Shown: piece by piece, positions 2,303 to 21,255 of the stretch
Position numbering within the stretch: position 1 is the first letter of the stretch
Layout: each line of letters begins with the position of its first letter
IMG/VR virus record: IMGVR_UViG_3300042549_006386
Location: 1-22,708 of that record
Direction: 5' to 3' (one strand)
Length of the DNA stretch: 22,708 bases
Origin: a virus
Notes under the pieces: generated by a model
Database searches by the model: none
What the model saw: only the letters and a program-made list of their open reading frames with translations
What the model was told of the DNA's origin: nothing
Position numbers and translations under genes: made by a program

Positions 2303-5300
2303 TTATCTTGCGAGTGAATATTTGAATGGGGATTCGGCAAAGGCCATGTAAATGTAGTTAAACCCATTGCCATTGAATTGAGTATTTGTTCCTCTCAATT
2401 TAAATCCATTTGATAAAAAGTCAGCAACATCTGCTGTTGCTTCTGCGTCAGATAAATTAGGAAACAGTTTTTTATCAACAACATTATTTACGTTTCGTTT
2501 GTTATCGTGAATTAACCACGATGCAGTCCCATCTGAAACCTTAAAAATAATGAAAGCAGGTCTAAAACCCGTGTATACAAATGTTCCATCTGTACTACCA
2601 TTTCCAACATAACCGCCAAACGCAGAATATCCTGCTATTGGAGCAAAGCAGTATGCGACAAATCCAATAGTGCTTTGATTAGTTGAGGCATCTGTGCCAA
2701 CGCTAAAAACTGCTGGTGTTGGCGCTGTGCTATTGAAGTAATTTGGGTCATTATCTGCCGCAATGGTGTTGTTCAAAAGTAACGCATAAGTTGTTGGATT
2801 GGATATATTTGCGTGGTACACAATCCAATTGTCTACGTTGCCTCTACCTTTAATAATCATCATTCTTGGAGTTACACCAAGACCATGACCCACAGTAGCA
2901 TTAGCTCCCGTACCCGTATAAGTCACAATTGAAAATCCACTTGCAGGGCTTGCACTTACTTGTGAAGTGATGGAGCCAGTTGTGTTGTTAACGGCAGTAC
3001 CGCCACCTTTCCATGCCCAAGTAACAATGCTATCGCCATTTGCATTAGTAGAGTTAAAATTTTCAGGGACACCGACAGTAAACCCATCAGAGTCAAAAGA
3101 AGCCAAATCCCTGCCAGCAATAGAGGTGTACTCTGCGTTAGTGACTTCAGATGCTAAACCATAAGTTCGGGTTGCAACCGAATTAAACAAAGCATGAGAC
3201 CTTCCGGCACTTCTTGATTTAAACCATAAGAAATCAGGTTGAAAACCTAATCCTGATTTTACATTTCCAGCTGAACCATTACCTGTATATGTAAGTATAT
3301 TAAAAAACTTATCAGCTAAAGTCGTTGGGCTTGATCCAATTGTTGGTGTTGGCAAGTTCTGTGTGTTCAGTGCCTTGAAGCCGCCGGGTGGTGTGTAGGC
3401 CCATGCTCGTTGACCGAAGTTGGCACTATAAGATAACGATGCCGAACCCGAACCATCACGCCATGATGGAGATACATTTAATGACGCAGTTGCATAAGTA
3501 ATTGCACCTTGACTTGTTCCATTTTTGTAGAAAGTTACTGTGCCAGCATCAACATCTACAGCAGTACCAATAATGTCCCCATTGCCATATGAAGAACCAT
3601 AAGATGACGTTGTGCCATCTAATTGTTTAGTACCATCACCTATGTATCTCACAATATTTGTTATTGATGCGCCTGTGCTTGAAACCACATTTTCAATACC
3701 TGAATAAGATGTTCCAGTATTGGTTTGTGTATATTCCCAATACCATTTACCGCTATTTGGAATGTTCATTGTTGCGTAAACAACACCGCCATTTGTAGTC
3801 CCTGTATCGCCATCCAAATTGCCATTAGATGTAGTGCCTACCAAAACAGATAAAGGATTCAGCGTAGCGTAGTTACCACGCACAACACCACCAACACCGT
3901 AGTCAGAACCGTAGTTTGTAGGCACATCAACAAGTGAGTCATTACCCGCACCCGCAGACACGCTGAAGTTATTAGGTGTCCAGTTATTGCCGTTACCTGA
4001 GTAGTCTTTACCCAATGTAGCGGCAGTTGTGTTGCTGTTGTCTGAGAAGTTCAGATAGAAGCCATTTGTACCATAGGTTCCTGTATAAGCTTTCGGTCCC
4101 CATACGCCTGTGTTGGTATTGGTTGCGCCAAATGATGACGGAGTTAAGGCTTGACCATCAACAAAGTTGACCTCGGTCATGTAGCCATCGAAATATTCGC
4201 CATCATTACTCTTACCAATAGTGTATGTGCTTCCAGACAAGTTAAACGCATTAGTTTGACCCGTGGCGGTAAGTTGACTTACGCCATTAAAGTAAACATT
4301 TACAGTTGTTGAGTCAGTTCTTTGAATGACTAAATGATACCAAGCACTTGGGTCACGAAAAACCGCAGTAGTGGTAGTGCTTCCAGAGTCGTAAACGCCA
4401 AAAGTGCTAGTAGTACTAATAAATTGATATATTGGATATAAACTTCCAACACGACCAAGTATTGTGCCAAATGCACCAAAAGCACTTCGCTTAATCCAGC
4501 AACTAAATGTCCAAACATTGGCGTTTGTTGGTGTTCCAAAAGTCCTGCTCAAGTTAGCAGAATCGGCTGAATTAAATCGCAATGAACGTGAAATCTGGTA
4601 GTCAGTTGCAATAACTGCTGGTGTTGTTGGTGCCAATGTGCCTGTTGCATAGAAGATATGAACAATGTAACCATTGGCGTAAGTGACTGCGCCTCCAGTG
4701 TAGAACTGCACGTTGCCGGGATATCTGACAATAACGATGCCTGAGCCGCCTGCGCCGCCCGAACCGCTTGACCCAGCACCCCCACCGCCGCCTCCTGTAT
4801 TGCCTCCACCAGATCCGCCCAAAGAACCTGACGATCCAACACCACCACCTCCAACTCCACCAACACCTGCCGTACCTGTTAAAACACCTGCACCGCCACC
4901 GCCCGAATAAACTGTTACCGTACCTGTTATGGCACTTGCAATCCCTGCGCCGCCATTTCCAGCTGCTGATGTAGATGTGGCGTTTAAACCTATTGTTCCC
5001 GCACCACCACCGCCTCCGCCAGCATAGATAAATCCACCATTACCACCAGCAGTGCCTTGGCCAGATATACCTTGTTCGCCAGTGCCATAGTTGTAATTAC
5101 CGCCACCGCCAGAACCGCCCGTCCCCGCACCAGCGGCAGATAGCGTGTTGTCAGTGCTTCCCCTACCGCCACCATTTGCTGTAATAGAGGAAAACGAAGA
5201 ATTTACACCAACTATTCCGGGATTTCCTCCAGAGGATCCTCCAGCACCGCCGCCACCAACAGTAACGGTGTAAGAATTGCCAGCAGTAACAGTTACGATG

Positions 5301-5467
5301 CCTGTTAATAAGCCGCCAGCACCACCACCTCCTCCTCCCGCTTGAGAACCTGCTCCACCACCACCAGCAACAACAAGATACTCTACAAATTGAGGTGCAG
5401 CTCCTGGTAATCCACCAAGAGTTCTTAATTGATTTATATTACGTTGTGTAAAAATACCACTAGCCAT
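2303..5467 (-). CDS. Mosaic adhesin: glycine-rich + LamG-like + SPRY-like + triple C-terminal module
   Basis: A 1054-residue virion protein, probably a receptor- or glycan-binding fibre. Residues 1-26 are a unique leader. Residues 27-280 form a whole glycine-rich module (VEYLVVAGGGG ... GGSGIVIVRYP ... YIVHIFYATGTL) like its stand-alone neighbours. Residues 288-475 look like a LamG/concanavalin-type jelly roll (RSLRFNSADSANLSRTF, WTFSCWIKRS, WYHLVIQRTDS, VYFNGV, YFDGYMTEVNFVDGQALTP). Residues 535-690 resemble a SPRY/B30.2 fold (GKWYWEYT, GDIIGTAVDVDAGTVTFYKNG, ANFGQRAWAYTPP). Residues 720-1047 hold three related modules of about 100 residues with the pattern 'TYTGxG ... GLGxxPxFxxxK ... WxxxH'. 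LamG and SPRY are known carbohydrate/protein binding folds, so host-surface binding is the natural inference. AAGGTG, eight bases upstream of the ATG, is a good ribosome binding site. It lies 8 bases after the stop of the adhesin at 5476-6330. Confidence 0.85.
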   Translation of the reverse strand: MASGIFTQRNINQLRTLGGLPGAAPQFVEYLVVAGGGGAGSQAGGGGGGAGGLLTGIVTVTAGNSYTVTVGGGGAGGSSGGNPGIVGVNSSFSSITANGGGRGSTDNTLSAAGAGTGGSGGGGNYNYGTGEQGISGQGTAGGNGGFIYAGGGGGGAGTIGLNATSTSAAGNGGAGIASAITGTVTVYSGGGGAGVLTGTAGVGGVGGGGVGSSGSLGGSGGGNTGGGGGGAGSSGSGGAGGSGIVIVRYPGNVQFYTGGAVTYANGYIVHIFYATGTLAPTTPAVIATDYQISRSLRFNSADSANLSRTFGTPTNANVWTFSCWIKRSAFGAFGTILGRVGSLYPIYQFISTTSTFGVYDSGSTTTTAVFRDPSAWYHLVIQRTDSTTVNVYFNGVSQLTATGQTNAFNLSGSTYTIGKSNDGEYFDGYMTEVNFVDGQALTPSSFGATNTNTGVWGPKAYTGTYGTNGFYLNFSDNSNTTAATLGKDYSGNGNNWTPNNFSVSAGAGNDSLVDVPTNYGSDYGVGGVVRGNYATLNPLSVLVGTTSNGNLDGDTGTTNGGVVYATMNIPNSGKWYWEYTQTNTGTSYSGIENVVSSTGASITNIVRYIGDGTKQLDGTTSSYGSSYGNGDIIGTAVDVDAGTVTFYKNGTSQGAITYATASLNVSPSWRDGSGSASLSYSANFGQRAWAYTPPGGFKALNTQNLPTPTIGSSPTTLADKFFNILTYTGNGSAGNVKSGLGFQPDFLWFKSRSAGRSHALFNSVATRTYGLASEVTNAEYTSIAGRDLASFDSDGFTVGVPENFNSTNANGDSIVTWAWKGGGTAVNNTTGSITSQVSASPASGFSIVTYTGTGANATVGHGLGVTPRMMIIKGRGNVDNWIVYHANISNPTTYALLLNNTIAADNDPNYFNSTAPTPAVFSVGTDASTNQSTIGFVAYCFAPIAGYSAFGGYVGNGSTDGTFVYTGFRPAFIIFKVSDGTASWLIHDNKRNVNNVVDKKLFPNLSDAEATADVADFLSNGFKLRGTNTQFNGNGFNYIYMAFAESPFKYSLAR

Positions 5468-5475
5468 TATTCACC

Positions 5476-6330
5476 TTAAAATGTTATTGTACCAGATGCA
5501 ATGAAAACATATACTCGGTGAGAACCAGTCTTATATGTCAAAGGAGAACCTGTTGTTGATTTAGCGGCCGCAAAATATGAAGGGTATCGGATGATGACTA
5601 TGCCTGAGCCACCTGTGCCTCCAACAAGACCACTAGTGCCATCGCTAAGACTTCCACCGCCTCCACCGCCTGTGTTGGCAAAACCTGCTTGACCATTTGA
5701 AATAGCAGTTGAGCCACCAGATGAGCCACCAGAGCCACCACCAGCAACTCCATATCCAGCAATGTTGGTGTTTTGATTTCTACCACCACCAGCGCCACCG
5801 CCAGCGTATTGTATTTGTGCGCCAGAAATGGATGAAACTAAACCTGTGCCACCATTGCCACTTGTTAAAGTTGTTGTAGTTGTTCCAGCAGACCCTGCCC
5901 CACCGCCACCGCCTGTTGCATATTGACTAGCGGTCGAAGCAGAACCGCCAGCAAAACCTTGCCCAGATGTTCCAGTGCCACCAACATTTTGCCAACCAGC
6001 ACCACCACCAGAACCGCCTGATGCACCAGGACCACCATAACCTCCAGCACCGCCACCTGTTGCAGTTATTGTTGTTCCACCAGCTAAAACAGAATTTACA
6101 CCATTATTTCCAAATGTAGCGTTACCTCCAGCACCGCCAGCACCAATGGTCACAGTAATGCTTGATCCAACAGTAACAGCAAAACCAGTTGCGGTTAGTA
6201 ATCCACCAGCACCGCCACCACCGCCCCAATAACCACCGCCGCCACCTCCGCCAGCCACAACAAGGTACTCTACTGTCGTTGGTGCTTCGCCGTAATTGGT
6301 TAAATTTCCACCGAAGTAACGATTAGACAT
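5476..6330 (-). CDS. Glycine-rich tail-fibre adhesin (284 aa, complete)
   Basis: A complete single-module member of the glycine-rich family. The leader is MSNRYFGGNLTNYGEAPTT, close to the MSKYLGGLV leader of the protein at 856-1713. VEYLVVAGGGGGGG follows, then poly-glycine islands separated by variable Ser/Thr/Asn/Gln segments. GGSGIVIIRYP precedes the C-terminal HRVYVFIASGTITF. The variable segments are where it departs most from its paralogues. The likely role is a receptor-contacting fibre-tip protein of polyglycine-II architecture, inferred from composition and context. Its ATG overlaps the TAA of the upstream gene by one base (TAATG), so its translation is probably coupled to the 137-residue protein. 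It is followed after 8 bases by the mosaic adhesin. Confidence 0.85.
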   Translation of the reverse strand: MSNRYFGGNLTNYGEAPTTVEYLVVAGGGGGGGYWGGGGGAGGLLTATGFAVTVGSSITVTIGAGGAGGNATFGNNGVNSVLAGGTTITATGGGAGGYGGPGASGGSGGGAGWQNVGGTGTSGQGFAGGSASTASQYATGGGGGAGSAGTTTTTLTSGNGGTGLVSSISGAQIQYAGGGAGGGRNQNTNIAGYGVAGGGSGGSSGGSTAISNGQAGFANTGGGGGGSLSDGTSGLVGGTGGSGIVIIRYPSYFAAAKSTTGSPLTYKTGSHRVYVFIASGTITF

Positions 6331-6757: not shown

Positions 6758-7312
6758 TTATCCGTGAAATATGTTAGCAAGTATGATAGTTTTTGCACCT
6801 GCAACTCCAGTACCACCTGAACTTACCACATTTGCAGCGGCTGTAATTCTACCTTGTGCATCAACAGTTATATTTACTGTATTTCCTGTACCACCGTATA
6901 CACCAGCAGTAACACCAGTTGTTGTTAGGTTTGAAGAACCAATTGTTGCGGCTGTAATTTTATCACCAGTAAGTGTACCGGTTGCAATCTTAACTCCTGT
7001 GATGGAGTTATTAGCAATCATAGCTGCTGTAACAGTCTCATCATCAGGCACAATCTTTGTTACAACATAGGCACGATATCTAACAATGATATTGCCTGTG
7101 CCAACTGATGGCGCTTCTGAAAATGTTAGGGTGTTACCATTAACTGTATATGAATTATTTGGGTCTTGTGGAACACCGTTAACTGTAACATCTAAATCTT
7201 TCTCTGTACCAACAATACGAGACAAAGTAAATGCAACTGTAACAGCATCACCGTTATAGGTGTCGAGTGCTGAACTAAACAGTTGTGTGGTAGGTGTATT
7301 ACCGATGTACAT
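6758..7312 (-). CDS. Tail-fibre-like protein (184 aa)
   Basis: The N-terminal 100 residues form a beta domain (MYIGNTPTTQLFSS, VTVAFTLSRIVGTEKDLDVTVNGVPQDP, YTVNGNTLTFSEAPSVGTGNIIVRYRA). This pattern is frequent at the start of phage tail-fibre proteins, where it docks the fibre to the particle. Residues 100-160 have short pseudo-repeats typical of fibre shafts (VTAAMIANNSITGVKIATGTLTGDKIT). YGGTGNTVNITVDAQGRITAAANV at about 140-163 is a motif common in fibre shafts. The protein is much shorter than most fibres, so it may be an adaptor or a short fibre. Its ATG shares one base with the TAA of the upstream gene, and GGAG inside that gene's end is a plausible ribosome binding site. The role is inferred from motif style and neighbours. 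Confidence 0.7.
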   Translation of the reverse strand: MYIGNTPTTQLFSSALDTYNGDAVTVAFTLSRIVGTEKDLDVTVNGVPQDPNNSYTVNGNTLTFSEAPSVGTGNIIVRYRAYVVTKIVPDDETVTAAMIANNSITGVKIATGTLTGDKITAATIGSSNLTTTGVTAGVYGGTGNTVNITVDAQGRITAAANVVSSGGTGVAGAKTIILANIFHG

Positions 7313-7629
7313 TAACTAATCTCCAGCACCGATAAGATAACGTCACAATTTGAAGTTGCTGAGCATTTGATTGCATCTGCCGCTTCTAGTACCAATTTTT
7401 GGTCTCCGCCAATTGGAACAAGAGCACCGCCAACTGCAATAGAAGCGTCTTTGACCATGTAATAGTCAACTCCACCGGCCGTTACGAATACGTTACAACT
7501 GATTGGAGCGGCTGTGATGTTTGCAATAGACATACCAATAATAGTAGCCTGAACCCCACTGCCAGCGGTAAAAACAGTCGTATTTGCTGCGACATTTTTG
7601 CCAAAATAATTTTTAAAAGTGTTTGCCAT
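7312..7629 (-). CDS. Small virion structural protein (105 aa)
   Basis: A compact protein of the beta-sandwich type. MANTFKNYFGKNVAANTTVFTAG is followed by SGVQATIIGMSIANITAAPISCNVFVTAGGVDYYMVKDASIAVGGAL (spanning roughly residues 24-70) and PIGGDQKLVLEAADAIKCSATSNCDVILSVLEIS at the end. I recall this 'IIGMSIANIT....NVFVT...VDYY.VKDASI..G..LVPIGGDQKLVL' layout from small structural proteins of marine phages, but I cannot name a function. It has three cysteines and no membrane segment. A late-promoter octamer lies 22 bases upstream, and AAGGATATT between promoter and ATG gives a normal ribosome binding site. This gene could therefore start its own late transcript covering all the adhesin genes downstream. 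Confidence 0.75.
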   Translation of the reverse strand: MANTFKNYFGKNVAANTTVFTAGSGVQATIIGMSIANITAAPISCNVFVTAGGVDYYMVKDASIAVGGALVPIGGDQKLVLEAADAIKCSATSNCDVILSVLEIS

Positions 7630-7646: not shown

Positions 7647-7658
7647 ATTCTATTTATC
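7647..7658 (-). promoter_or_regulatory. Candidate T4-type late promoter upstream of the 105-aa gene
   Basis: The minus strand reads GATAAATAGAAT, matching the T4/cyanophage late octamer NATAAATA. It shares the 11-mer ATAAATAGAAT with the sites before gp8 and gp25. It overlaps the stop codon of the upstream gene. The predicted start is about 15 bases before the ATG, leaving room for the AAGGA ribosome binding site. It would drive the fibre/adhesin genes. Confidence 0.65.
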
Positions 7659-8436
7659 CTAGTGCGATTGCGAAGGCAACCGCATCATCTGAAGCTCTAC
7701 TGTAAGCTGATGATACTGTTGTCTGTATGATTAAATTACCCACCATAACTGAGTGATTTTGACATTGATACACATAAGTGTTACCTGCTAATACAGAAGG
7801 AACTTTCCAGATAAGTGTTCCGGTTTGTTTTGCTTGAGCATCACTTCCAGTAGTAACAACACCAGCTGTTGATACGTGTGTAAGTCCTACATTATAAAGT
7901 GTTCCACCATTTGACTGTCTTATAAGGAACGGATGGCCTGAAGCATTAATGTTAAATGAAACTGTTTGGCCAGGATGTAAATATATGTCAGGATTGTTAC
8001 CAGAGTATTGGTCAAATAGGTAAGCGCCTGAACCAGAATTAACTACAGCAAAAGTAGTAACACCAGTTCTTACATTAGCATTTGAAGAAAGTGCGAATCC
8101 ATCTACAAAAAGATTTGAGTTGACACTTAAAAGACCAGTTTTACTGGTAATAATATTAAGATTTGAAGTACCTAAAACTGTTAGATTATTTGCAAAAGAA
8201 GCCGAACCATTAGAGTTGATATCATCAAAACTAATTGAATCTAGTACAATATTTCCCGATACTGTTAAGTCGCCACCAATTGTAAGGTTGTTAGCAACCG
8301 CAAAGTTGGTATTTGAATAGAAGGTAGAATTACCACCACCTTCAATCAGTGAATTAGTTTTAGTTACTAAATCCTGTGTCGCAGTCAACCATTGACTAAA
8401 AGTATTTGCGGTATTTAATTGTGAAATTATAGACAT
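7654..8436 (-). CDS. Fibre-like virion protein with C-terminal cupredoxin-like domain
   Basis: 260 residues. Residues 1-35 form a helical leader (MSIISQLNTANTFSQWLTATQDLVTKTNSL). Residues 36-120 have fibre-shaft-like short repeats (NLTIGGDLTVSGNIVLDS, SFANNLTVLGTSNLNIIT). Residues 125-240 look like a cupredoxin: IYLHPGQTVSFNINASGHPFLI, then GTLIWKVPSVLAGNTYVYQCQ, then NHSVMVGNLIIQ. His168, Cys225, His228 and Met231 occupy the places of type-1 copper ligands, and the C-x2-H-x2-M spacing is that of amicyanin. The last 20 residues are a short tail. I recall similar 'GHPF ... YxCQxHxxMxG' domains in marine phage structural proteins, so the family is probably widespread though not functionally explained. 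Copper binding is inferred from the ligands; the domain could also be a metal-free fold relic. The ATG shares one base with the upstream TAA, and AGGATA is the ribosome binding site. Confidence 0.75.
   Translation of the reverse strand: MSIISQLNTANTFSQWLTATQDLVTKTNSLIEGGGNSTFYSNTNFAVANNLTIGGDLTVSGNIVLDSISFDDINSNGSASFANNLTVLGTSNLNIITSKTGLLSVNSNLFVDGFALSSNANVRTGVTTFAVVNSGSGAYLFDQYSGNNPDIYLHPGQTVSFNINASGHPFLIRQSNGGTLYNVGLTHVSTAGVVTTGSDAQAKQTGTLIWKVPSVLAGNTYVYQCQNHSVMVGNLIIQTTVSSAYSRASDDAVAFAIALG
7717..8064 (-). other. Cupredoxin-like domain with full type-1 Cu ligand set (His, Cys, His, Met)
   Basis: Residues 125-240 of the 260-residue protein. Ligand codons read directly: His168 at 7935-7933, Cys225 at 7764-7762, His228 at 7755-7753, Met231 at 7746-7744. 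Cys225 is the only cysteine in the domain. The 57-residue His-to-Cys distance falls between the plastocyanin and azurin values as I remember them. Confidence 0.65.
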
Positions 8437-8663
8437 TACTTATCCTGATTTGCCGCTATTTGTAACAGCAACTGTTTAATCTCTTGCATATCTTCTTCTA
8501 GTTTATTCAATCGAGCTTTATCTTCAGTCTTTTCTAGTTGCTGCTTTTTTGCAAGCTCACGTTTCATATAATACTCATTCAGACCATTTCTATCTGTATT
8601 TAGAATGGCCTTAGAATGAATATCTCTTACAAACGTAGTATCATCAACTTTTACTAATGGCAT
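8436..8663 (-). CDS. Small coiled-coil virion-associated protein (75 aa)
   Basis: Residues 1-35 read MPLVKVDDTTFVRDIHSKAI followed by LNTDRNGLNEYYMKRELAK. Residues 36-72 form a highly charged amphipathic helix with heptad spacing of Leu/Ile (LEKTEDKARLNKLEEDMQEIKQLLLQIAA), a strong coiled-coil candidate. I recall small proteins with the same 'PLVKVD...FVRD..S.AILNTD...NEYY' start followed by a coiled coil next to DUF4815 genes in marine T4-like phages, but no function is known to me. It sits between the giant DUF4815 protein and the cupredoxin-bearing protein. Its 3' end overlaps the latter by one base, suggesting coupled translation. AGGT upstream is a weak ribosome binding site. It might oligomerise or link fibre proteins; that is a guess. 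Confidence 0.75.
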   Translation of the reverse strand: MPLVKVDDTTFVRDIHSKAILNTDRNGLNEYYMKRELAKKQQLEKTEDKARLNKLEEDMQEIKQLLLQIAANQDK

Positions 8664-8666
8664 ATG

Positions 8667-11600
8667 TTAACCTGCTGGGAATGCGATTGCACGAAGGTCA
8701 CGCACTTTTGGAATATCAACTGTATTACTTCCAGACATTACAACTTTAATTGAGAATGTTCTGAACGTAGAGAATCCAGTTGTATCAGTTGTATATCCAA
8801 CAGAGTTGTTTGCAACACCACCAGATCCTGGTGCAAATACTAATTCACGATAATCATTTCTATTTGTAGAAACAAAATTTTCATTACCAAGTTCTGTCAT
8901 CAATTGATAGTTCTTATTATCAAACAAATCACTGTCGGATTTAGAAAGAATTTTGTAATAAACGAATATATTAGATCCGTCCGGTTTGTAACCAGTCAGA
9001 TATACACGAAGATCACCAGAATCAAATCCATCATTTAAAATAACTTTACGAGTCATGTAACGCACCTCAGAGTTACCACCAAGTATTTTATCTTCACCAT
9101 TATATGTAACAATCGCACCAGAACCACCGCCTGATCCAGGAGTTAATGTAATCGTTGGTGAAGTTGTATATCCAGAACCATTAGCAGTAATATACACAGA
9201 AGTGATAGTATTACCACTAACTGTTGCAGCTGCAGTTGCACCAGTACCACCACCACCTGTAATTGATACAGTAACATCAGTAGAATTGGCATAACCAGTT
9301 CCTGATGATGTGATGAAGATTTCAGAGTTTCTTAATGGTAATGTATTGATTATATTTTCAACAATACACATACCAGCTCTAGACGAATCAACAACTGGAG
9401 TTACCGTAGGATTCAATGTTGCCATTGTTGCCTTGAGTATCAAAGATGAATTAGCGCCAGTAATTACACGGCGTCCAAATCCATCATCTGTATAATAATC
9501 TTGCAGCGGTGTGATTGGTAAAAATCCTGTTGAAGCACCAGTGCCATTTATTGTAGAATTAAATGTATACGCAACAGAAGTATTACCAATAATTAAATCA
9601 TTTGTAATTAAGTGTGTTAAATCAAATACTGTATTTGTACTTGGTGCAACAACTTTAAACTGTAATACAGCTGGTGTTCTTGAGAATACATTTCTGTATA
9701 TTCGGAACAACATGTCCGATGTTTGATCCGCAGTCCATGTAGAACCGTTCTGCGACAAGAATAGAGAACCGCCATAGGCCTGTTCTGAAATTTGTCTTTG
9801 TTGCACAATATCTAACTTACCAACTTCAGCAACATATGCCTCATATTTGTTTGAGTTGGCGAAGAATACAAATGAATGTTCGCCTGGTTGTAAATAAATT
9901 GGTGAGTCAAACTTAAATTCAGTATACTTTGTATCATCATCCAAATTTGGAGAATCTGTAGTTTTAACTTTATCTGGTGTTAAAGTAACTGTACCATTTG
10001 GATAAATCACAGAAGATGATGGAACACCATTTACTGTGGGTCTTAATTGTAATGTGATTGGAACAGTATCGTCTTTTGTTTTAAAACAAGCACGAAGTCT
10101 ACTCATATACAGACCTTGTGGGTATGTAATTGGATCAACTAAGAATGTTTGTGCCAATGGATCATACCAACCAACAACTACATCCGTTCTAGCTTGACCA
10201 CTAACTCTAGAAATAGGTTGTTCTTGTTGTACCGCTGTTCTTTGGATTGTAGGTTGAGTAACAGAAAGAATAGTTGCCTCAACTGTTTGCACAGCACCTT
10301 GAGCAAAGAATGATGCATCTCCGTTTGTTGTAGATGATACTACATCATTAATAGCACTATCAATTAGACGAAGTTTCTTTTCACCAATGCGGAAAGTAGA
10401 AGTTGGAATTACAAAGACACCTGCAACATCGCCAGCGGCAGTTGTTTTCATTCTTCCAATAGAATAGAAAGAATCATTGGCAATAGGAGTTGTTGTCCAT
10501 GCGCCAGAAATCATAGCAACTCTTGTTGCAGGATTATATGAAGTAATTGTTGCAGTTTGGCCAGCGCCAGTTCCTGAAACCACAAAAATTGGCGATGTAT
10601 TGTAATCTGAAACATTGTTTGCAGAATTAGCATCTAAGGCCAATGTAATCGAATTTGTATTAGCCGCAGTAACTCGACCTGTATAGTGTTCATAACGGAC
10701 AATCTTAGAAGATGTTCCTGTTGATTGGCCAATCAGATTTGCAGAAGCGAGATTATAAGAACCAGTTGGTTGATTATTAACAATGAAAGCTTCAGTATTT
10801 GATGTTCTAACTATGAATGCAGTACCAACAGATGATGAAGTACCATTGTTGTAAATAGTTACTTGTTCAAAGTTACCAACTTCTGTTCTGTACCCAAGAT
10901 TATTGTTTTGTAATGTAAACTTATTAGCACGAGCTGTAAATGATTCAACAGAAGTTGAATCAAAGAATGGAAACAATGTTGTGTTTGGTTTAAAGTCTGA
11001 AGCAACTACAACAATACCTTTACTTCTCATATAAGGAACAATCGACAAGTCAACTAATCGATCACCAATATTTTGTGTAATGGTTTCTGGAACAACCCTA
11101 GACACAACACCTGAACGAGTAGTGGAACCAGTTTGTGTAGTTGTTGTAATATATTGATCAACGATTGCCAATCCAGGGGTGCCGGCGATGGCGCCAGCAA
11201 AAACCCCTCGGTTAACTGTTTCTGTGGTTGATGTTCCTGTCCAATTCTCTTGCCATGAACCCCATGTGTAATCATAAGGAGAAGTCAATGAAGTGATTCT
11301 ACTCCATGCATCAGCTGAACCGCCAAGATTAATTTTAACATCTGGTTGTCTTACTGTATCTAGCCAAATATCTGTTGTTGGGTCAATTGATATTCTACCA
11401 ACAAAATTAGTAATATTAAATGGATTGACACTTATAGCTTTTGATGCTTTTGGTTGGTCAATAAACATAGTATCAGAAGAACTTACAGTAATAGAAGTTC
11501 CATTTTGAGTATATCCACTTGAGTTAGCAGAATCAAATTCTAATGTAACCGAACTTACAGTAAATGGTGGTCTCAATTCTTGTCTTTTTGGATCAACTGA

Positions 11601-14600: not shown

Positions 14601-14645
14601 GTCATCATAATATGGGTTTACATTAAAATTGGTATCAAGAGCCAT
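8667..14645 (-). CDS. Giant DUF4815-type virion structural protein (1992 aa)
   Basis: The N-terminus (FNVNPYYDDYDEDKKFLRML, FKPGYAVQARELTQLQTILQ, FGTSVYKNGSVVTGGQ) matches the DUF4815 proteins of cyanophage- and pelagiphage-type myoviruses as I remember them. Further landmarks are YTSSTGSNYSLRDCLDFRPV near 824-844, a helical TIEKRVENLEYYTALSLLEQ near 953-972, and DPLAQTFLVDP near 1495. Two copies of the Gly-Tyr beta module follow near 1775-1848, then a C-terminal beta domain. By position it stands where T4 has genes 9-12, so it may be the large peripheral baseplate or fibre-anchoring protein. That role is inferred from gene order. It has no enzymatic motif, signal peptide or membrane segment. 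AAGGA before the ATG overlaps the end of the gp8-like gene. It covers about a quarter of the window without a frameshift. Confidence 0.85.
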   Translation of the reverse strand: MALDTNFNVNPYYDDYDEDKKFLRMLFKPGYAVQARELTQLQTILQKQVQRFGTSVYKNGSVVTGGQTFFQDVVSLNLESTFAGTVVTANNFIDKTLVDDNTNPTKRALVLKVFDANAGTGDPKTLLVKQIYGAPFAAGDTIKTFETTTVSANIAASGVGAGQIFSVNEGVFYYEGFFIKNNAQTIDVSKYSATANARVGFEITESIVSYTSDTTLLDPAQDASNYQAPGSDRYKIVLTLAQRSLESTDDTQFIELARIQEGNLTKYDRYPVYSVLEDNLARRTYDESGNYTVRPFTLTLNTSAANTANMEVIISPGKAYVYGYEYETVSPTTLIVPKPRETESVTSKRITADYGYYVYANTLYGTLPINSLQTVDLHCVPNSSINVTSTATISNTKIGTARIKSIQFDSATNTSNSATYQYKTFLFDVNVGSLTGVVNTAINVSAVQIANTLILANNRMTTDNAYIGAKFRITSGPGVGENPKLITNYSGVNSTITLSDPFVATLTNASAYSIDFEFNDVNSIVVTSGAGAAARVAAIDIDQRSKDHSTTFDDVFISDTNSEALLFRLGEDYIANNSISGLSLSFRRLYEAVPFSTGLSTALSLGSGEALSTATSTTTRQSNYQVVVTAAGSSGYEVGKTIPADLFTVDQATRRITITNGVNLTANVYATIDATAPNPKTKTYVAANTSLQLSGGVNIFANGGVNLYSSNGQIQIAANNVVRVPSVAQSLYVSDVCNIVSVLDFNNTHITQANSANAIDVTSRYTFNTGQKDSYYDHGSIKLKPGVAAPVGPIVIKFNRFSSSGAGFFTNDSYSGFAYEDIPTYTSSTGSNYSLRDCLDFRPVRASATAATANSVVFDVDSSTTGPKIPENGSDIILSYNYYLARNDKVILNKDRTFEVVKGVSSLYPDDPKDKDNSMTLFILRNPAFTANTSNVSTQFINHRRYTMRDIGTIEKRVENLEYYTALSLLEQSTVSKQDLTILDSQNLPRFKNGIIVDSFTGSGVADVAQVDYRASVDPKRQELRPPFTVSSVTLEFDSANSSGYTQNGTSITVSSSDTMFIDQPKASKAISVNPFNITNFVGRISIDPTTDIWLDTVRQPDVKINLGGSADAWSRITSLTSPYDYTWGSWQENWTGTSTTETVNRGVFAGAIAGTPGLAIVDQYITTTTQTGSTTRSGVVSRVVPETITQNIGDRLVDLSIVPYMRSKGIVVVASDFKPNTTLFPFFDSTSVESFTARANKFTLQNNNLGYRTEVGNFEQVTIYNNGTSSSVGTAFIVRTSNTEAFIVNNQPTGSYNLASANLIGQSTGTSSKIVRYEHYTGRVTAANTNSITLALDANSANNVSDYNTSPIFVVSGTGAGQTATITSYNPATRVAMISGAWTTTPIANDSFYSIGRMKTTAAGDVAGVFVIPTSTFRIGEKKLRLIDSAINDVVSSTTNGDASFFAQGAVQTVEATILSVTQPTIQRTAVQQEQPISRVSGQARTDVVVGWYDPLAQTFLVDPITYPQGLYMSRLRACFKTKDDTVPITLQLRPTVNGVPSSSVIYPNGTVTLTPDKVKTTDSPNLDDDTKYTEFKFDSPIYLQPGEHSFVFFANSNKYEAYVAEVGKLDIVQQRQISEQAYGGSLFLSQNGSTWTADQTSDMLFRIYRNVFSRTPAVLQFKVVAPSTNTVFDLTHLITNDLIIGNTSVAYTFNSTINGTGASTGFLPITPLQDYYTDDGFGRRVITGANSSLILKATMATLNPTVTPVVDSSRAGMCIVENIINTLPLRNSEIFITSSGTGYANSTDVTVSITGGGGTGATAAATVSGNTITSVYITANGSGYTTSPTITLTPGSGGGSGAIVTYNGEDKILGGNSEVRYMTRKVILNDGFDSGDLRVYLTGYKPDGSNIFVYYKILSKSDSDLFDNKNYQLMTELGNENFVSTNRNDYRELVFAPGSGGVANNSVGYTTDTTGFSTFRTFSIKVVMSGSNTVDIPKVRDLRAIAFPAG
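9100..9320 (-). repeat. Gly-Tyr beta module (two tandem units) in the 1992-aa protein
   Basis: The units read TSSGTGYANSTDVTVSITGG and TANGSGYTTSPTITLTPGSG, each followed by a glycine turn and Ala/Thr strand (GTGATAAATVSGN; GGGSGAIVTY). The same pattern occurs in gp6, gp7-like and gp8-like proteins of this window. Confidence 0.7.
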
Positions 14646-14654
14646 TGACTGTCC

Positions 14655-16256
14655 TTAGAAACTTACGATTAGTTTAATATTTTCCGCCTGGCCATCTGCC
14701 CGGTCGAGTTTTGTTATATTTTCCGTATACATTATATCACCTGTATATGGTTCAAATTCTGGTTGAGATGTTGCGGTAACTGTTCTAGAAGAACCCGAGC
14801 TAAAACCAATAAGTGGAAGACCCGTAACAAATGTTCCTTTGACTTTTGTTAACCTAACTCCGTTGGTAGTTTGTGCATTAATAAAACCATAAGCATTTGG
14901 ATTAGATACTGATCCTTGATAAACATATTCATTCAAAGAAAAAGAACTTCCAGCAACAACATCTAAATTGGTAGTCTGTGATATAACAGAATTAGCTGTA
15001 GCAGTATTTGCTGCAACAGTTGAACCATATTTATATGGATCTCTCAACAATCCAATTTGTCTAAATGAAGTATCAATTGAAATTAATCCCTGTTCAGTAG
15101 AATCAATTTCTCCAATTCTAACAGCAACCATTACATTATTTGCACTTAATTCTTTAGCAGGATTAAAAGAGTGACCAAACTTTGGTGGCAAAATAACTCT
15201 AGTTTGAGCACCAGAACCTGAACCGTAAATGAACGCATTTGCTGTGGTATAATCAGAACCAATAGTAGAAACAGTAATCTTAGATATATTAGCTTGAGCT
15301 GCTGAAGCACCAGAAGACGTGTTGGAAAGCGTGGCACTTGCAACAGCACCAATGCCATCACCAGAAATATAAACTCTGGTTGAGATTGTTATGTTATTAG
15401 CATTACCACCAACTCCACTTGTTGCGGCTGACAATGTTATAATACCTGTTGTGTTTGAAATAGAGCTAATGAAAGTATCTGCCAATATACCTGTTCCACT
15501 GATGGTCAAGTTACTTAAATTGGCTAAAGTTGGAATACTGAATACAGATAAAGTTAATGAGGTGTTTGATAGCTTTAACGATGTTTGACCAGAGGTGAAA
15601 GAATCAACCCTAATGTTGGAAGCTTGTCTATAATTAACACCTGAATTGGTAACAACAATTGTAGTTAGTTCTCCATCAACAACACCAGAACTATTAACGC
15701 CATAGTCTAATGCAGCTGTAGAGGTTGGAGCTGGTATCCATTGCGTTGTTAAAAACTTATTTGATGGTTTAACATTGTACATATACTTCCAAACAAACCC
15801 ATCACCTGTAGAGATGTTGCCGTTAGAAGTTGTATAGTCACCTGAAGGTTCGACTGTGGAGTTTGCAGATGCGTTATTAGAAACACACTTATAAACATTT
15901 CTTGCCGATGTGATTACATACATCGGCTTCAAATTTTGTGTGGTATTTGAAGACAATAATGTTGCAACTTCAATTGTATCATCATATTGACGATATCTGG
16001 TATTTGAAGTCCAGTTAACCTTTGGAACCACCAATTCAACATCATTTCCTGTTGCTCTTTTTGCAGCAAAGATGTTATCCCAAGTATTTTTTTCTGCCGA
16101 TATTGTATCGACAATAGAATCTGGAGAGGATTCATTTGCGTAAGGAACATGGTTTCCAATAAAGACATATGCTATAGTTGGATTAGCCTCCGAGAACGAT
16201 TCTTTGAATTGTTCCGCCGTATTAAACGATAATTTTTTGTTAGTTATTGCTGCCAT
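14655..16256 (-). CDS. gp8: Baseplate wedge protein, gp8-like (533 aa)
   Basis: The conserved blocks match T4 gp8 as recalled. They are AEQFKESFSEANPTIAYVFIG at the start (T4: ..YNSIGSGPDKNTIFITFG), VVPKVNWTSNTRY near 76-88, DGFVWKYMYNV near 152-162 (T4 DGYVWEYLFEI), FRQIGLLRDP near 398-407 (T4 FRQISIITNP), and the C-terminus GDIMYTENITKLDRADGQAE followed by NIKLIVSF (T4 GEMIYMENRP...QTEEINILFTF). T4 gp8 has about 334 residues. The extra length lies mainly between DGFVW and FRQI, where Gly-Tyr beta modules are inserted. gp8 is a wedge component that binds gp7 and gp10 in the T4 baseplate. Its ATG lies 6 bases after a late-promoter octamer, with no Shine-Dalgarno. It follows the gp7-like gene, the same order as T4. 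Confidence 0.88.
   Translation of the reverse strand: MAAITNKKLSFNTAEQFKESFSEANPTIAYVFIGNHVPYANESSPDSIVDTISAEKNTWDNIFAAKRATGNDVELVVPKVNWTSNTRYRQYDDTIEVATLLSSNTTQNLKPMYVITSARNVYKCVSNNASANSTVEPSGDYTTSNGNISTGDGFVWKYMYNVKPSNKFLTTQWIPAPTSTAALDYGVNSSGVVDGELTTIVVTNSGVNYRQASNIRVDSFTSGQTSLKLSNTSLTLSVFSIPTLANLSNLTISGTGILADTFISSISNTTGIITLSAATSGVGGNANNITISTRVYISGDGIGAVASATLSNTSSGASAAQANISKITVSTIGSDYTTANAFIYGSGSGAQTRVILPPKFGHSFNPAKELSANNVMVAVRIGEIDSTEQGLISIDTSFRQIGLLRDPYKYGSTVAANTATANSVISQTTNLDVVAGSSFSLNEYVYQGSVSNPNAYGFINAQTTNGVRLTKVKGTFVTGLPLIGFSSGSSRTVTATSQPEFEPYTGDIMYTENITKLDRADGQAENIKLIVSF
15192..15674 (-). repeat. Inserted Gly-Tyr beta-module region in gp8-like protein
   Basis: Residues 195-355 contain VVTNSGVNYRQASNIRVDSF near the start and TVSTIGSDYTTANAFIYGSG with GAQTRV near the end. 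These are diverged units of the module also seen in gp6 and gp7-like. The stretch is absent from T4 gp8 as I recall it and lies between two conserved gp8 blocks. Confidence 0.6.
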
Positions 16257-16270: not shown

Positions 16271-18806
16271 TCACTATATTTAAAGGTTCGCTGCTGGCAT
16301 TCATAGTCCATGCAGAAGAAACAGAAATATTTGTGTTACTTATGATACTATTTACGATTCTCAATTCACCATTAACTGCAACATTGGTACCGAGTGTGAT
16401 TGTTCCAAGTGAGTTTGCAATATTAAATTTGGTGTTTACTCCATTAACATAGATTGACCCGTTTGATACTGATACTGTACCAGAAATTTGGTTAGTAATA
16501 GCTTTAGAAACAGCTGTGTCTTTCTGTGATACAATTAGATTCTTATTCAAATCTGCATAGTTTACAAATCCAGCTGGATGTAACAACTCTTTCAGGATTG
16601 TTTTGTATTTTGTAAATTCTGTTAGTGATGATGTGATATAAGAATAATCAACATAAAAGTTGCTACCTTGAAGTTTTCTTTCAGAACTTGATAGAATCGA
16701 ATCAGATGTTATCCAACGGCCAGATAAAGTGGAATAAGAATTACCAACTGTTGCAGCTGCAGTTGCAGTACCATCACCTTTGGTTGTCAAGTCAACTGTT
16801 GGAATATATTGATATCCAGCACCACCACTAGTAACTTTGATTGTGATGATTTGACCAGGTACTGTATCAGTCAAAGCACTTAATATTTCACCATCACCTA
16901 TTAAAGAAGTGATTGCTACATTTGCATTAGTTCCAGTTGTTGATGAAACTGTAATTGTTGGGAAGCTGCCTTGAGTATAGTTAATACCACCAATAACACC
17001 TCTTGATAGTGAACCAATAGGTGAGTTATTAGACCATACTGTTCCATCACTAAACGAAAAGGCTGCATTTACAGTTGCCGATGTTGATGAAGTAACGGCA
17101 TTGATAAAGCGTTCTTGGCTTCTGATTGTAATCTTATCACCAACACCCAATTCAGTACCAAATGCAGTACCAGTACCAACAACAACAATTGAATTGTTCA
17201 ATACGTTTGCAGTACCAGCAACCCTCTGAGATTGTATTTTAATTTTGGTGATTGTTCCAGAACCAGCAACTTCAGTTACCGCAGCTGCTGCACCATAACC
17301 ATATGTGCCAGATGGATTCGTACCAAATACAACTTCATCACCAACTTTATAGTTTACACCACCATTGTTGACATCAATTCTTCCAACTGAACGATACGAT
17401 TTAATATCATATATTGTACTACCAAGAAGATAACGAGCACCTTCCGAATCAAGTATTGCGGTATTAACAGATGTGTTTGAAAACAAAATAACTGCATTAG
17501 TTATTGGACCAAGGTCTGATATAGTCAATGAAGTCAATGCATCAAAAATTCTGGTATTAATATTCTCACCAGCTGGAATAACTTGAGATGGAAATCCATA
17601 ATCTGCAGCTGATAATACAATAGTGGAATATGAATTGATAATGTCATCACTAATTAAGAATGAAATTGCCGCATTTGCACCAGAAGTATCAACACCATCA
17701 ACAGCGCCAGTAAGAAATGAATTACCTGGAGTGTTAGAACTTGTTATCAATGAAGCAGTATGAAATCCTGCGCCGCCATAATTAACAACAATACGATTTG
17801 TTAGACCAGCTGTTACAGACTCAACTTCTGCTGTAGCAACACTTGTTGCGCCGCCGCCAAGAATAGTTACGGTATCACCAACATTATACGAAGCACCGGA
17901 ACCTGTAACTAGAATTGTAGTAAGAATGGAGAAAGTGTCAGCATTTAAAGTTATTATTGTTCCGTTTGAATCAATAATATCGGTTACAATTTGTTCACCA
18001 TTGGTAAATATTCCACTCAATGATTTCTTATCAACAAACAATTCAAAAGGTAAACCAAAATTTAATCGGTCTGTAATAATTCGTTTTGTCGCACGTTCAA
18101 TAACTGCACTTGCCCCAGAAGTTAATCCTGTAACTTTTCTGTTGTTTAATATTGTAATATCAAAATTACTATAAACAGCTTTGATTACTGAATTTGCAAC
18201 TGGTGCTGTAGTAAAAACTAATTTTCTTGATTCTTTACGAATTGTATAATCGGTATCAATCGTTTTTAATGCATCATCAACATAGACAGAAACATCACCA
18301 ACATCAACTGATTGTGCCAAATAAAATACTGTGTTTGAACCATTGGCAACATATGTACTTCGAATATCAGTTTCCAACTTTAGAATATTATCAATAGTCC
18401 ATTGACCATCAGAAGCTTTAAGAACATTGTTTTTTGGTAAAAGAACTTCAACTTCGTCACTAAAAAGTAATCGAAACAATAATTTAAATGATTTTTCATT
18501 ACCTCTTGCAAGATAAAGAGGCAAAACATTTTTAATTAAAGTTTCTTTACTTACTTGAACATCTCTAGGAATAAGAGATGCGTACATATTGAAGAAACTT
18601 TCCTCAAACGTAGTAATAGATGCATCAACATCGGAAAGATATCTTAAATCTTTAGATTGTTTTAATACATCATTCTTTTGGGTACCCTGAGCTTGTTCTA
18701 AAAACTCATAGTAAGCTTCTAAAAATGAAATAAATACAGGGTATTCTTCCCGAACATATTCAGGAACTTGTTTGTTAACAAGTAGTGATGTTTTATAATC
18801 AGACAT
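16266..18806 (-). CDS. gp7: Baseplate wedge protein, gp7-like (846 aa)
   Basis: Two blocks resemble the C-terminal part of T4 gp7 as recalled. Residues 15-122 hold EYPVFISFLEAYYEFLEQAQGT and LPLYLARGNEKSFKLLFRLL with FSDEVEV (T4: FEAFCEAYIQYLSDGYGTQ ... YSTKGIEASYKFLFKVLYNEEVEI). Residues 722-752 hold YITSSLTEFTKYKTILKELLHPAGFVNY (about that span), against WKSDVIRFVHPVGFGF in T4. In T4 these blocks are about 100 residues apart and follow a long N-terminal part. Here the N-terminal part is missing and some 600 residues of beta modules separate the blocks. gp7 ties wedge proteins together in T4. The position between gp6 and gp8 supports the call. The ATG shares one base with the gp6 stop and no Shine-Dalgarno is visible, so translation may be coupled. 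Other phages may list this simply as a structural or tail protein. Confidence 0.78.
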   Translation of the reverse strand: MSDYKTSLLVNKQVPEYVREEYPVFISFLEAYYEFLEQAQGTQKNDVLKQSKDLRYLSDVDASITTFEESFFNMYASLIPRDVQVSKETLIKNVLPLYLARGNEKSFKLLFRLLFSDEVEVLLPKNNVLKASDGQWTIDNILKLETDIRSTYVANGSNTVFYLAQSVDVGDVSVYVDDALKTIDTDYTIRKESRKLVFTTAPVANSVIKAVYSNFDITILNNRKVTGLTSGASAVIERATKRIITDRLNFGLPFELFVDKKSLSGIFTNGEQIVTDIIDSNGTIITLNADTFSILTTILVTGSGASYNVGDTVTILGGGATSVATAEVESVTAGLTNRIVVNYGGAGFHTASLITSSNTPGNSFLTGAVDGVDTSGANAAISFLISDDIINSYSTIVLSAADYGFPSQVIPAGENINTRIFDALTSLTISDLGPITNAVILFSNTSVNTAILDSEGARYLLGSTIYDIKSYRSVGRIDVNNGGVNYKVGDEVVFGTNPSGTYGYGAAAAVTEVAGSGTITKIKIQSQRVAGTANVLNNSIVVVGTGTAFGTELGVGDKITIRSQERFINAVTSSTSATVNAAFSFSDGTVWSNNSPIGSLSRGVIGGINYTQGSFPTITVSSTTGTNANVAITSLIGDGEILSALTDTVPGQIITIKVTSGGAGYQYIPTVDLTTKGDGTATAAATVGNSYSTLSGRWITSDSILSSSERKLQGSNFYVDYSYITSSLTEFTKYKTILKELLHPAGFVNYADLNKNLIVSQKDTAVSKAITNQISGTVSVSNGSIYVNGVNTKFNIANSLGTITLGTNVAVNGELRIVNSIISNTNISVSSAWTMNASSEPLNIVT
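16737..16994 (-). repeat. Gly-Tyr beta modules in gp7-like protein (distal pair)
   Basis: Residues 605-690 include VIGGINYTQGSFPTITVSST with GTNANVAITS, and KVTSGGAGYQYIPTVDLTTK with GDGTATAAATVG. Both fit the pattern of a G-x-x-Y turn, a strand with P-T-I/V, a glycine turn and an Ala/Thr strand. Confidence 0.65.
17232..17384 (-). repeat. Gly-Tyr beta module in gp7-like protein (middle copy)
   Basis: Residues 475-525 read VNNGGVNYKVGDEVVFGTNP, then GTYGYGAAAAVTEV, then GTITKIKI. The unit matches the other copies, with KVGDEVVF replacing the P-T-I strand. Confidence 0.65.
17757..17915 (-). repeat. Gly-Tyr beta module in gp7-like protein (proximal copy)
   Basis: Residues 298-350 read VTGSGASYNVGDTVTILGGG, then ATSVATAEVESV, then RIVVNYGGAGFHTAS, which begins a second partial unit. 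Confidence 0.65.
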
Positions 18807-20851
18807 TAAATTTTAATCAAATCTACTGTTATTGCTGTTGGATCTGTTTCATCGATTGTAATAATTGTATTTCGTACAGTTTCGATAATACCTATTTCAG
18901 ATTCAATTGAAAGTCTTATATACCCATCAGGTGAATCAACTGACAATATTTTAATGTCATATATTTGAATGGCGCCTCTGTCATAGTCAATAAGACCAAC
19001 ATTAGAATCTACAACTTGTCTTTCTGCATTAGAGTCATAATAAATTGTTCGCAATGAACCTATTTTGCCATCAATTACAGCAACAGCAGTAGCGCCGTAA
19101 CCACTTCCACCAGAAATTGTTACAATAGCTCTAGTGTAATCTGTTCCTCTTTTTGTAATATTGATCGATTGAATTCTCCCATTCAAAAGAACAGCTTCGG
19201 CTTCTGCGCCAGATCCGTCACCACTAATTGTAATTGTTGGTGCTGTAACATAACCAACACCGGCATCATTAACTTCAATTGAACTAATGCCAGAAGATGA
19301 TTGTGGAATTTCGTCAAGAACTACTGTTCGTATAACACCATTAGCGTCATAAACAGAAAATGATGTGGATGACAATTTGTTTGTTATTGTTCCACGGTGT
19401 AAGGGTGCATTAAATTCAATATTATAATTTTTATTTTCATTAATTAAAGGCAAAAATCTTTTTTGCAATCTAACTGTAGTCTCAGAACCTAAAATCGCAT
19501 TTAAATTTGAACCATCAATGTTATCTTGTAATTTTGACAGAACGAATCTTGCACTAAACTTATTCAAGTTAACATTCCTATATGTTATGACAGAATCTCT
19601 AATGTTTACTTTTATTGCATCCGAACTCAATGGCGTTTTTCTTGGATCATATTTGACATAACTATTTACCAACAAATATAAAAAATTTGGATCAACAAGT
19701 TGTGTTTGTACGGCAACAATTGATTTTGGTTTTACAATATCATCAATAATTCTTTTCTTTTCCGTTTCTGAAACAAAGAAACCGGATTTGGGTTTGATAG
19801 AAACAAAAACTTTACCATAAACAGGAGGAACTTGATCTTCACCACCCCAAACAGAAATAGAATCTAAGGCTGGATAATTTTTCCGAATATATGTTTCGTA
19901 ATCTTTAAATGTAACTAATCTATTTTGTGTTGCAAATTGTGACATTGAGCTTTGTTTGATTTCATCAACACCTTCTCTATCAGAACCACCAGCAGCTGGA
20001 TCAACAACATTAATAGTAAAGTTACTTAAACCATTTAATGTAGAAGTTGGAATAATAACATCAACACCATTAGCTAAAGAACCATTTGTTACAAGATACG
20101 TCATCGTAACAATAGAACCGTCATCTATCTTTTGACCAATAGTATTATCACCAAAATAAATTTGAAACTTACCACTCCTATGTTCCTGTAAGAAATAAAC
20201 TTGTGATTCAGCAGTAACATCTAAGATATCTGTTACTTTATTGTATACTACAGTTTGTGTATTTGATGATGATGGCTTAACAGATATTTTAATTGTATTT
20301 GTATCAACATTGGCATCAGGAATCACAAATGTTTGTTTTGGATTTGAAGAATTATCTTGTGTATATTGGTACGTTACCAATTGTCCCTCATAGAAATCAA
20401 TGTCTTCAAAAAAATAATTACTTCCACTTTTTGTCACAGTAACATCATCTAATAAAACAAAATTGTAATTTGAATTATCAATTTGATTTGAGGAAAAAGA
20501 AAATCCTCTTGGCATCGTAATGCTGTCTGATATTGTTGAACCACTATTGAGTACAACATTACAAGTAATTCTAGGTGATGTTACAGAATATGGTGTATAA
20601 CCTAATGTCTTTGCATGTGATACAACTGAATCTCTTAAAATAGCAGAATCTAAAAACGATTCATTAGCTACCATGTTTAAATAGTATGCGTTATAATGCG
20701 TATTGTACGCCAATATATCTAATAATACACTAAAGCCAGACCCGTCAAAATCGTAGTCTGAAAATTGTGATTGTTGCTTTAAAAAAGACTTTAGATTTTG
20801 TTTGATTGAATCAAAGTCTAATTCAGCAATTTCTAAACGGTTTGTTGCCAT
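18806..20851 (-). CDS. gp6: Baseplate wedge protein gp6 (baseplate J-like)
   Basis: 681 residues, close to T4 gp6 (about 660). The N-terminal hallmark is FDSIKQNLKSFLKQQSQFSD and GFSVLLDILAYNTHYNAYYL with NMVANESFLDSA (residues 13-70), which is diagnostic for gp6/baseplate-J-type wedge proteins. AAGGSDREGVDEIKQ near 286-300, then VTFKDYETYIRKNYP near 313-327 and GKVFVSIKPKSG near 346-357, are typical of the J-like core. gp6 forms the inner ring of the T4 baseplate, joining gp25 and gp53 with gp7. Residues 519-600 carry two Gly-Tyr beta modules that I do not recall in T4 gp6. The ATG overlaps the gp25 stop by one base. Only a weak GGGCAAGA lies upstream, so coupling to gp25 translation is likely. 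Confidence 0.93.
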   Translation of the reverse strand: MATNRLEIAELDFDSIKQNLKSFLKQQSQFSDYDFDGSGFSVLLDILAYNTHYNAYYLNMVANESFLDSAILRDSVVSHAKTLGYTPYSVTSPRITCNVVLNSGSTISDSITMPRGFSFSSNQIDNSNYNFVLLDDVTVTKSGSNYFFEDIDFYEGQLVTYQYTQDNSSNPKQTFVIPDANVDTNTIKISVKPSSSNTQTVVYNKVTDILDVTAESQVYFLQEHRSGKFQIYFGDNTIGQKIDDGSIVTMTYLVTNGSLANGVDVIIPTSTLNGLSNFTINVVDPAAGGSDREGVDEIKQSSMSQFATQNRLVTFKDYETYIRKNYPALDSISVWGGEDQVPPVYGKVFVSIKPKSGFFVSETEKKRIIDDIVKPKSIVAVQTQLVDPNFLYLLVNSYVKYDPRKTPLSSDAIKVNIRDSVITYRNVNLNKFSARFVLSKLQDNIDGSNLNAILGSETTVRLQKRFLPLINENKNYNIEFNAPLHRGTITNKLSSTSFSVYDANGVIRTVVLDEIPQSSSGISSIEVNDAGVGYVTAPTITISGDGSGAEAEAVLLNGRIQSINITKRGTDYTRAIVTISGGSGYGATAVAVIDGKIGSLRTIYYDSNAERQVVDSNVGLIDYDRGAIQIYDIKILSVDSPDGYIRLSIESEIGIIETVRNTIITIDETDPTAITVDLIKI
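19052..19297 (-). repeat. Gly-Tyr beta modules (two units) in gp6
   Basis: Residues 519-600 contain VNDAGVGYVTAPTITISGDG with SGAEAEAVLLNG, then ITKRGTDYTRAIVTISGGSG with YGATAVAVIDG. The two units are the clearest copies of the shared module in this window. Confidence 0.75.
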
Positions 20852-21255
20852 TATCTTGCCCGTTCAAGGAAAAATTTAATTGTTACTGGATCTGTTCTGT
20901 TAACTATGTAGAATTCAAGATTTATACTATAACCATTTTTGTCGAAGTCTGGTATTAGTTGTATTTTTGAAATTGAAACCCGTGGTTCAAAGTTGCCAAC
21001 AACTGTTTCTATTTCTCTTTCCAGAGTTGCAGAAGTTACATTGTCCATAGGCTCAAATAACAATCGTCTGAGATTGCTGCCAATGTCTGGCCTGAATGGT
21101 TTCTCATAATGGCCTAACAACATCAGATTTTTTATAGAGTTTATAACAGCATATTCACCAATATGCTTATTGATATCTTTTTTAATAGGATGCACTTTAA
21201 ACGATAAGTCTAAGTCCCTATATTCTCTCGAAATATTTGTATTTGTTGTTGCCAT
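20851..21255 (-). CDS. gp25: Baseplate wedge protein gp25
   Basis: 134 residues (T4 gp25 is 132). The alignment from memory is continuous: YRDLDLSF near the start (T4 YSDIDPEM), AVINSIKNLMLLGHYEKPFR with PDIGSNLRRLLFEPMD (T4 RSIKNSLLGIITTRKGSRPFDPEFGCDLSDQLFENMT), LEREIETVVGNFEPRV (T4 VERNIESAVRNYEPRI), then the IPDF and LEFYIV strands. gp25 is the lysozyme-like-named but structural wedge component that nucleates sheath assembly and contacts gp6. In T4 gene 25 lies in a different cluster; here it directly precedes gp6. The ATG lies 5 bases after a perfect TATAAATA with no Shine-Dalgarno. Alignment with T4 supports this ATG as the true start. Confidence 0.93.
   Translation of the reverse strand: MATTNTNISREYRDLDLSFKVHPIKKDINKHIGEYAVINSIKNLMLLGHYEKPFRPDIGSNLRRLLFEPMDNVTSATLEREIETVVGNFEPRVSISKIQLIPDFDKNGYSINLEFYIVNRTDPVTIKFFLERAR

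Follow-up and report, generated by a model that had tools for sequence, protein, structure and literature searches.

A cupredoxin domain with a predicted type-1 copper site in a phage fibre protein and in cyanophage tail proteins

Our analysis indicates that a phage fibre protein carries a domain which, judged from structural models, almost certainly has the cupredoxin fold, and which probably binds copper. The protein, of 260 amino acids, is encoded on the minus strand at positions 7654..8436 of the window, by which we mean the whole 22,708-nucleotide stretch of viral DNA that was analysed. As far as open-access searches show, what is new is the predicted place of a known fold and metal site. 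Conservation of the ligands across relatives carries this interpretation, together with the fold models. The domain is exchanged as a unit between otherwise similar fibre genes.

Fold and copper ligands

The original prediction had located a His, Cys, His and Met of the type-1 copper kind within 7717-8064, and all four residues were found in their places, in GHPFLI and YVYQCQNHSVMVG. The interval corresponds to residues 125-240 of the protein. The proposed ligands are His168 (7933..7935, ligand 1), Cys225 (7762..7764, ligand 2 and the protein's sole Cys), His228 (7753..7755, ligand 3) and Met231 (7744..7746, the axial ligand), all on the minus strand. The whole protein contains just one Cys, four His and two Met. 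A stretch of 57 residues separates ligand 1 from the Cys and includes His187 (7876..7878, minus strand), which is almost invariant within the close clade (96 of 100) and lies in a stretch absent from cyanophage domains; on this comparison His187 is not a core ligand. Shuffling the window protein 200,000 times gave the loose pattern H-x25..80-C-x2-H-x2..4-M 35 times, and the pattern occurs in no other of the window's 88 ORFs of at least 60 amino acids.

Profiles built from relatives, unlike single sequences, gave useful fold matches. A single-sequence Pfam search of the window protein returned nothing useful, the best phmmer hit in the PDB had an E value of 0.12 and was to an unrelated protein, and neither the protein nor its domain matched PF00127 (plastocyanin/azurin) at the Pfam curated cut-off. 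Curated Pfam and NCBIfam models likewise did not recognise the window sequence. Weak PF00127 matches were present in 29 of 38 and 21 of 35 relatives, the best at 6.2e-5. From an alignment (A1) that brought together 38 domains of viral contigs, AlphaFold2 produced a confident domain model (mean pLDDT 92.1, pTM 0.85). Foldseek placed rusticyanin, amicyanin and plastocyanin as its best PDB matches (probability 1.00, E down to 5.5e-5, TM ~0.5), and VIA-align ranked copper nitrite reductase highest (Z 11.2, with 110 residues superposed at an rmsd of 2.5 A); next came multicopper oxidases, laccases and the cupredoxin AcoP. A second profile (A2), made from 35 diverse domains with a mean column identity of 37%, matched nitrite reductase (3.5e-6), plastocyanin (2.6e-5) and amicyanin (5.9e-5) in the PDB, and its matches were almost all to blue-copper or copper-reductase proteins. 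A match to a generic beta-sandwich was considered and rejected, as the top structure and profile matches are copper proteins throughout. The cupredoxin fold that had been proposed from the sequence is thus borne out by model and profiles.

The ligands also fall where they would be expected. Using domain numbering, hhalign aligned His52, as well as the C-x2-H-x2-M loop, in register with amicyanin, and the HMMER alignment to the PDB shifted His52 by two residues from the plastocyanin His. Ligand 1 is identified from the hhalign register, from its conservation and from the surrounding 'GHxF', which we take to resemble that of azurin and rusticyanin. In the AlphaFold2 model, His52 immediately precedes strand 54-57, Cys109 ends strand 104-109, and His112 and Met115 lie in the loop before strand 116-121. 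As modelled, this is the usual type-1 arrangement.

Conservation of the four ligands was striking at every depth of sampling. All four were invariant in the 38 A1 domains. In A2 only six columns were invariant, namely H52, P53, Y107, C109, H112 and M115, four of which are the ligands; with six of 107 columns invariant, four given columns would all be among them by chance with a probability of ~3e-6, columns being treated as independent. An earlier, smaller locus set kept all four ligands in 118 of 120 distinct domains. With more loci and loop variation allowed, the figure was 132 of 137, although BLAST and HMM sampling favours ligand-bearing copies and true loss may exceed this count. Among these 132, the axial loop read C-x2-H-x2-M in 126 and C-x2-H-x3-M in six, with H and M constant. 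Of the five misses, one (L142) was a partial match with C-H-M present and the other four were divergent copies without the site. These cupredoxin-like copies, divergent or in tandem, lie at L103:1291-1575 and L092:1958-2266 and, as two copies, in L070 (ORF from 5721). In the sequences at hand, where the copper site is lost the whole site goes. The four divergent copies show that the scaffold tolerates loss of the site, which suggests that something other than folding keeps the ligands in place; whole-site loss in a few copies, together with this tolerance, argues that their function lies with the metal and not with the fold.

The patterns used as early seeds could include the ligands themselves. 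This was countered with a sample (A3) seeded on the neighbouring 105-amino-acid gene, in which 11 of 11 distinct cupredoxin-bearing fibre genes kept all four ligands, three of them with the longer C-x2-H-x3-M loop. A sample seeded on the N-terminus gave only 14 loci, nearly all already seen. The gp9-type proteins of different cyanophages had the four ligands in 12 of 12 cases. Free replacement of the ligands, which would have told against the original prediction, was therefore not what the 132 of 137 and the 11 of 11 showed, and the conservation pattern indicates that the domain is under selection for a metal site.

The fibre gene and its exchangeable cassette

The window protein matched phrog_677, 'baseplate wedge tail fiber protein connector', with E=3.6e-23 over residues 12-239, a match that spans only positions 205-410 of the 412 in the profile. 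The full-length AlphaFold2 model, a monomer that is poor in the shaft and was used for domain boundaries only, laid out a helix (residues 3-31), an uncertain shaft, the cupredoxin domain (126-237) and a short C-terminal helix (250-258). The N-terminal helix (8344..8430, minus strand) bears a TANTFSQW signature and is kept in aligned relatives with and without the cupredoxin domain; it is probably an anchoring or trimerising segment. The shaft (residues 32-115, 8092..8343, minus strand) has low pLDDT and differs in length among relatives through repeats, in an alignment of proteins of 153-321 amino acids. The cupredoxin domain (7717..8064, minus strand) is followed by a C-terminal peptide, SSAYSRASDDAVAFAIALG (7657..7713, minus strand), which is conserved whether or not a cupredoxin is present and is possibly a docking peptide. 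No signal peptide was seen by eye in the window protein, which starts MSIISQLNTANTFSQW.

Two loci, L028 and L180, show how the domain comes and goes. Their DNA is 82% identical to the window upstream to 8176 and 74% identical downstream from 7716, and the 460-nt window segment between (the cassette, 7717..8175, minus strand) is replaced by ~140 nt. The L028 protein has 153 amino acids, starts as the window protein does and also ends in SSAYSRASDDAVAFAIALG. The IALG-ending fibre genes of L028, L053, L063 and L189 share the N-terminus, the C-terminal peptide and the next gene with the window gene, but lack its cupredoxin cassette. In the A3 survey, 59 distinct upstream genes ended in the (A/S)I(A/T)L(G/S) peptide; 11 had a cupredoxin and 48 did not, and 27 of the 48 had a TANTFxxW-type N-terminus. 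By these sequence comparisons the cupredoxin is a cassette that can be exchanged within a T4-like baseplate/fibre locus. Since L028 and L180 have a fibre gene without it, the domain, and hence copper, is not needed to build the fibre. Metal-dependent stability of the whole fibre, one role suggested originally, is accordingly unlikely.

Several further features of these loci were observed. Fibre genes ranging from 86 to more than 1300 amino acids (upstream genes in L185-L264) share the (A/S)IALG end and are followed by a ~105-amino-acid MANxFK... gene. Similar C-terminal peptides occur in CRP-9 (ALAIALG), HMO-2011 and HTVC203P (AMAIAL) and Melnitz (AIGVALG). The shared end may serve to dock the part of the fibre that comes next. 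In L069 a 198-amino-acid ORF (4160-4756), by eye presumably a GIY-YIG homing endonuclease, lies between the fibre gene and the 105-amino-acid gene. In L246, L250, L253 and L255 the gene immediately before the 105-amino-acid gene encodes a small protein whose end, IKxLLQQI.., resembles that of the window's 75-amino-acid virion protein, and from their sequences the fibre gene seems to be absent.

The window gene lies among structural genes. It is flanked by the 105-amino-acid small structural-type gene (7312..7629, minus strand), which other phages also have next to an IALG-ending fibre gene and after it, and by the gene for the 75-amino-acid virion structural protein (8436..8663, minus strand, phrog_473). 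Further along are a baseplate wedge subunit (14655..16256, minus strand, phrog_438) and two more (18806..21255, minus strand, phrog_219 and phrog_261). Between the baseplate and fibre genes, positions 8667-14645 encode a 1992-amino-acid structural-type protein (phrog_358, function unknown). A glycine-rich VEYLVVAGGGGGG domain is common to four other proteins (1-849, 856-1713, 2303-5467 and 5476-6330), three of which match phrog_2295; by sequence, these look like multiplied adhesin-type fibres. The window's baseplate protein is closest to those of Methylophilales phage Melnitz and Pelagibacter phages (38-40% identity), and a cyanobacterial host is thus not indicated for the window phage.

Distribution and presence on virions

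A copper-site domain in a phage structural protein had been thought unusual, and this did not hold. The window protein as query matched 175 phage records, and the domain of Prochlorococcus phage P-TIM68 matched 354, which are not independent species and are nearly all from cyanophages: 271 are labelled Synechococcus phage, 55 'Cyanophage' and 19 Prochlorococcus phage, the rest being marine virus records (5), Pelagibacter (2), uncultured virus (1) and Actinomycetia (1). Among the matches listed, most are in gp9, the 'baseplate wedge tail fibre connector'. The cupredoxin is C-terminal in all of 12 gp9-type proteins but that of MA01, which has more sequence beyond it. The domain was also found in podovirus proteins of P-GSP1 and P-SCSP2, in a 'proximal tail fiber' of P-SSM2 and in a 'peptidase S8' of S-BM3. 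A single-sequence scan of bacterial genomes gave one relative, in Bacteroidetes: a secreted protein encoded by a metagenome-assembled genome (L168:4326-5309) that has collagen-like repeats and ends in an HCHM domain. Plasmids yielded no relatives of the domain.

One of the gp9-type proteins, S-SZBM1_206 (gene 146110-147606), contains HPFEI...CTIHSGMIG and was detected in CsCl-purified virions with 9 peptides and 24.9% coverage (PMC9146016). The window protein is likewise presumed to be on the virion, and is probably trimeric. Long tail fibres were reported absent from S-SZBM1, S-WAM1, P-RSM6 and P-TIM40 (PMC9146016). All four of these phages keep the cupredoxin domain, which suggests that it is not merely a socket for the long fibre.

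Possible roles and comparison with known systems

Based on these observations, the explanation we prefer is a copper-loaded accessory surface module. The cupredoxin domain would hold copper tightly, and would probably take it up once the virion has left the cell, since the cytoplasm has little free copper. A rigid, copper-loaded module exposed on the fibre or baseplate might then help the virion to engage the host surface, much as is thought for Ig-like accessory domains, and electron transfer as such would be unnecessary. Gain and loss at one site, the unrelated fibre scaffolds that carry the domain and its presence in a bacterial surface protein lead us to prefer an accessory role at the surface to a mechanical one at the core. 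No other step of the chain is as weak as this one. Taken as a whole, host contact included, the proposal is plausible but falls a little short of probable.

The metal might instead be a structural centre, copper or another metal hardening an exposed domain against seawater, light and proteases with no part in recognition or redox chemistry. Bound metal does stabilise cupredoxins, and in several different fibre scaffolds the domain is found at an end or where it looks exposed. Nevertheless, the existence of ligand-free copies and domain-less relatives means that the fibre needs no metal, and stabilisation would not alone demand all four type-1 ligands so strictly; we regard this reading as unlikely. 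Still less probable is that the cupredoxin is a relic fold, serving without metal as a beta-sandwich spacer or a protein-binding surface. Its modular, dispensable nature and the loss of ligands in some divergent copies would suit such a relic, but exactly the four ligands are strictly kept at 37% column identity, as they are throughout the ligand-independent sample.

About as improbable as a relic is a sensor of redox state or copper, in which arrival at the cell alters the reduction state or loading of the site and so tips the baseplate/fibre switch. In T4, gp9 joins the long fibre to the baseplate, and the C-terminal domain of the cyanophage gp9-type connectors has its ligands intact; moreover, the type-1 ligand set is of the electron-transfer kind. 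Against sensing, no redox partner is known, close relatives lack the cassette, and cyanophages reported to be without long fibres keep the domain. Copper piracy, a 'copper Trojan horse' in which the loaded domain baits host metal-uptake receptors, seems the most remote of these ideas: type-1 sites bind copper tightly, but no receptor is known and, to our knowledge, such receptors are scarce in streamlined oligotrophic hosts. An iron version of this idea has been discussed for T4 gp37-like HxH motifs in marine phages (PMC11705849). A wider proposition is that virions of many T4-like cyanophages and related aquatic phages have functional type-1 copper centres on baseplate/fibre proteins, and that the bound copper, through its presence or redox state, serves to recognise the host or to gate an infection switch. 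Phage particles would then be copper-binding ligands in natural waters. This proposition is in our view doubtful at present.

By open-access PMC searches, no blue-copper module has so far been assigned to a phage particle, and the conserved copper site would be the first. In that literature no paper was found that treats cupredoxins and phage tail fibres together, and the sole paper found on cupredoxin with cyanophage concerns Borgs. A paper on viral nirK (PMC8115048) was set aside as a precedent because its subject is a genuine nitrite reductase. In the ocean, T4-like cyanophages rank with the most common viruses, and a conserved copper site in a core baseplate/fibre protein would link copper availability to infection. 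The domain is small (~115 residues), and a type-1 copper site in its holo form is blue. Annotation is also corrected, as these domains are now listed as regions of 'connector', 'tail pin', 'hypothetical' or 'peptidase S8' proteins.

With amicyanin, plastocyanin and rusticyanin the window domain shares the cupredoxin fold and the ligand order His...Cys-x2-His-x2-Met, and its C-H-M loop, aligned by both hhalign and HMMER, has the spacing of amicyanin. In contrast, the stretch from ligand 1 to Cys is longer than in amicyanin, identity to blue copper proteins is ~15-20%, and the domain is embedded in a phage fibre rather than forming a stand-alone periplasmic carrier. The window protein thus falls outside the exported electron carriers of the PF00127 family, and its gene sits in a baseplate/fibre cluster. 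T4 gp37-like HxH fibres are similar in that a metal site has been proposed on a phage fibre; those sites, however, hold octahedral iron in the fibre trimer and have no cupredoxin fold (PMC11705849). The gp9 proteins of Syn9, S-RIM2 and P-SSM7, together with S-SZBM1_206, have the same domain and four ligands as the window protein. Their N-terminal ANDGTGDTLR...KIN.NF.E.Y motif is absent from it, and the window protein instead has the TANTFSQW helix at its start and the IALG peptide at its end. Accessory Ig-like domains are optional beta-sandwich modules found across unrelated phage virion proteins; compared with the window cupredoxin, they have another fold and are without conserved metal ligands.
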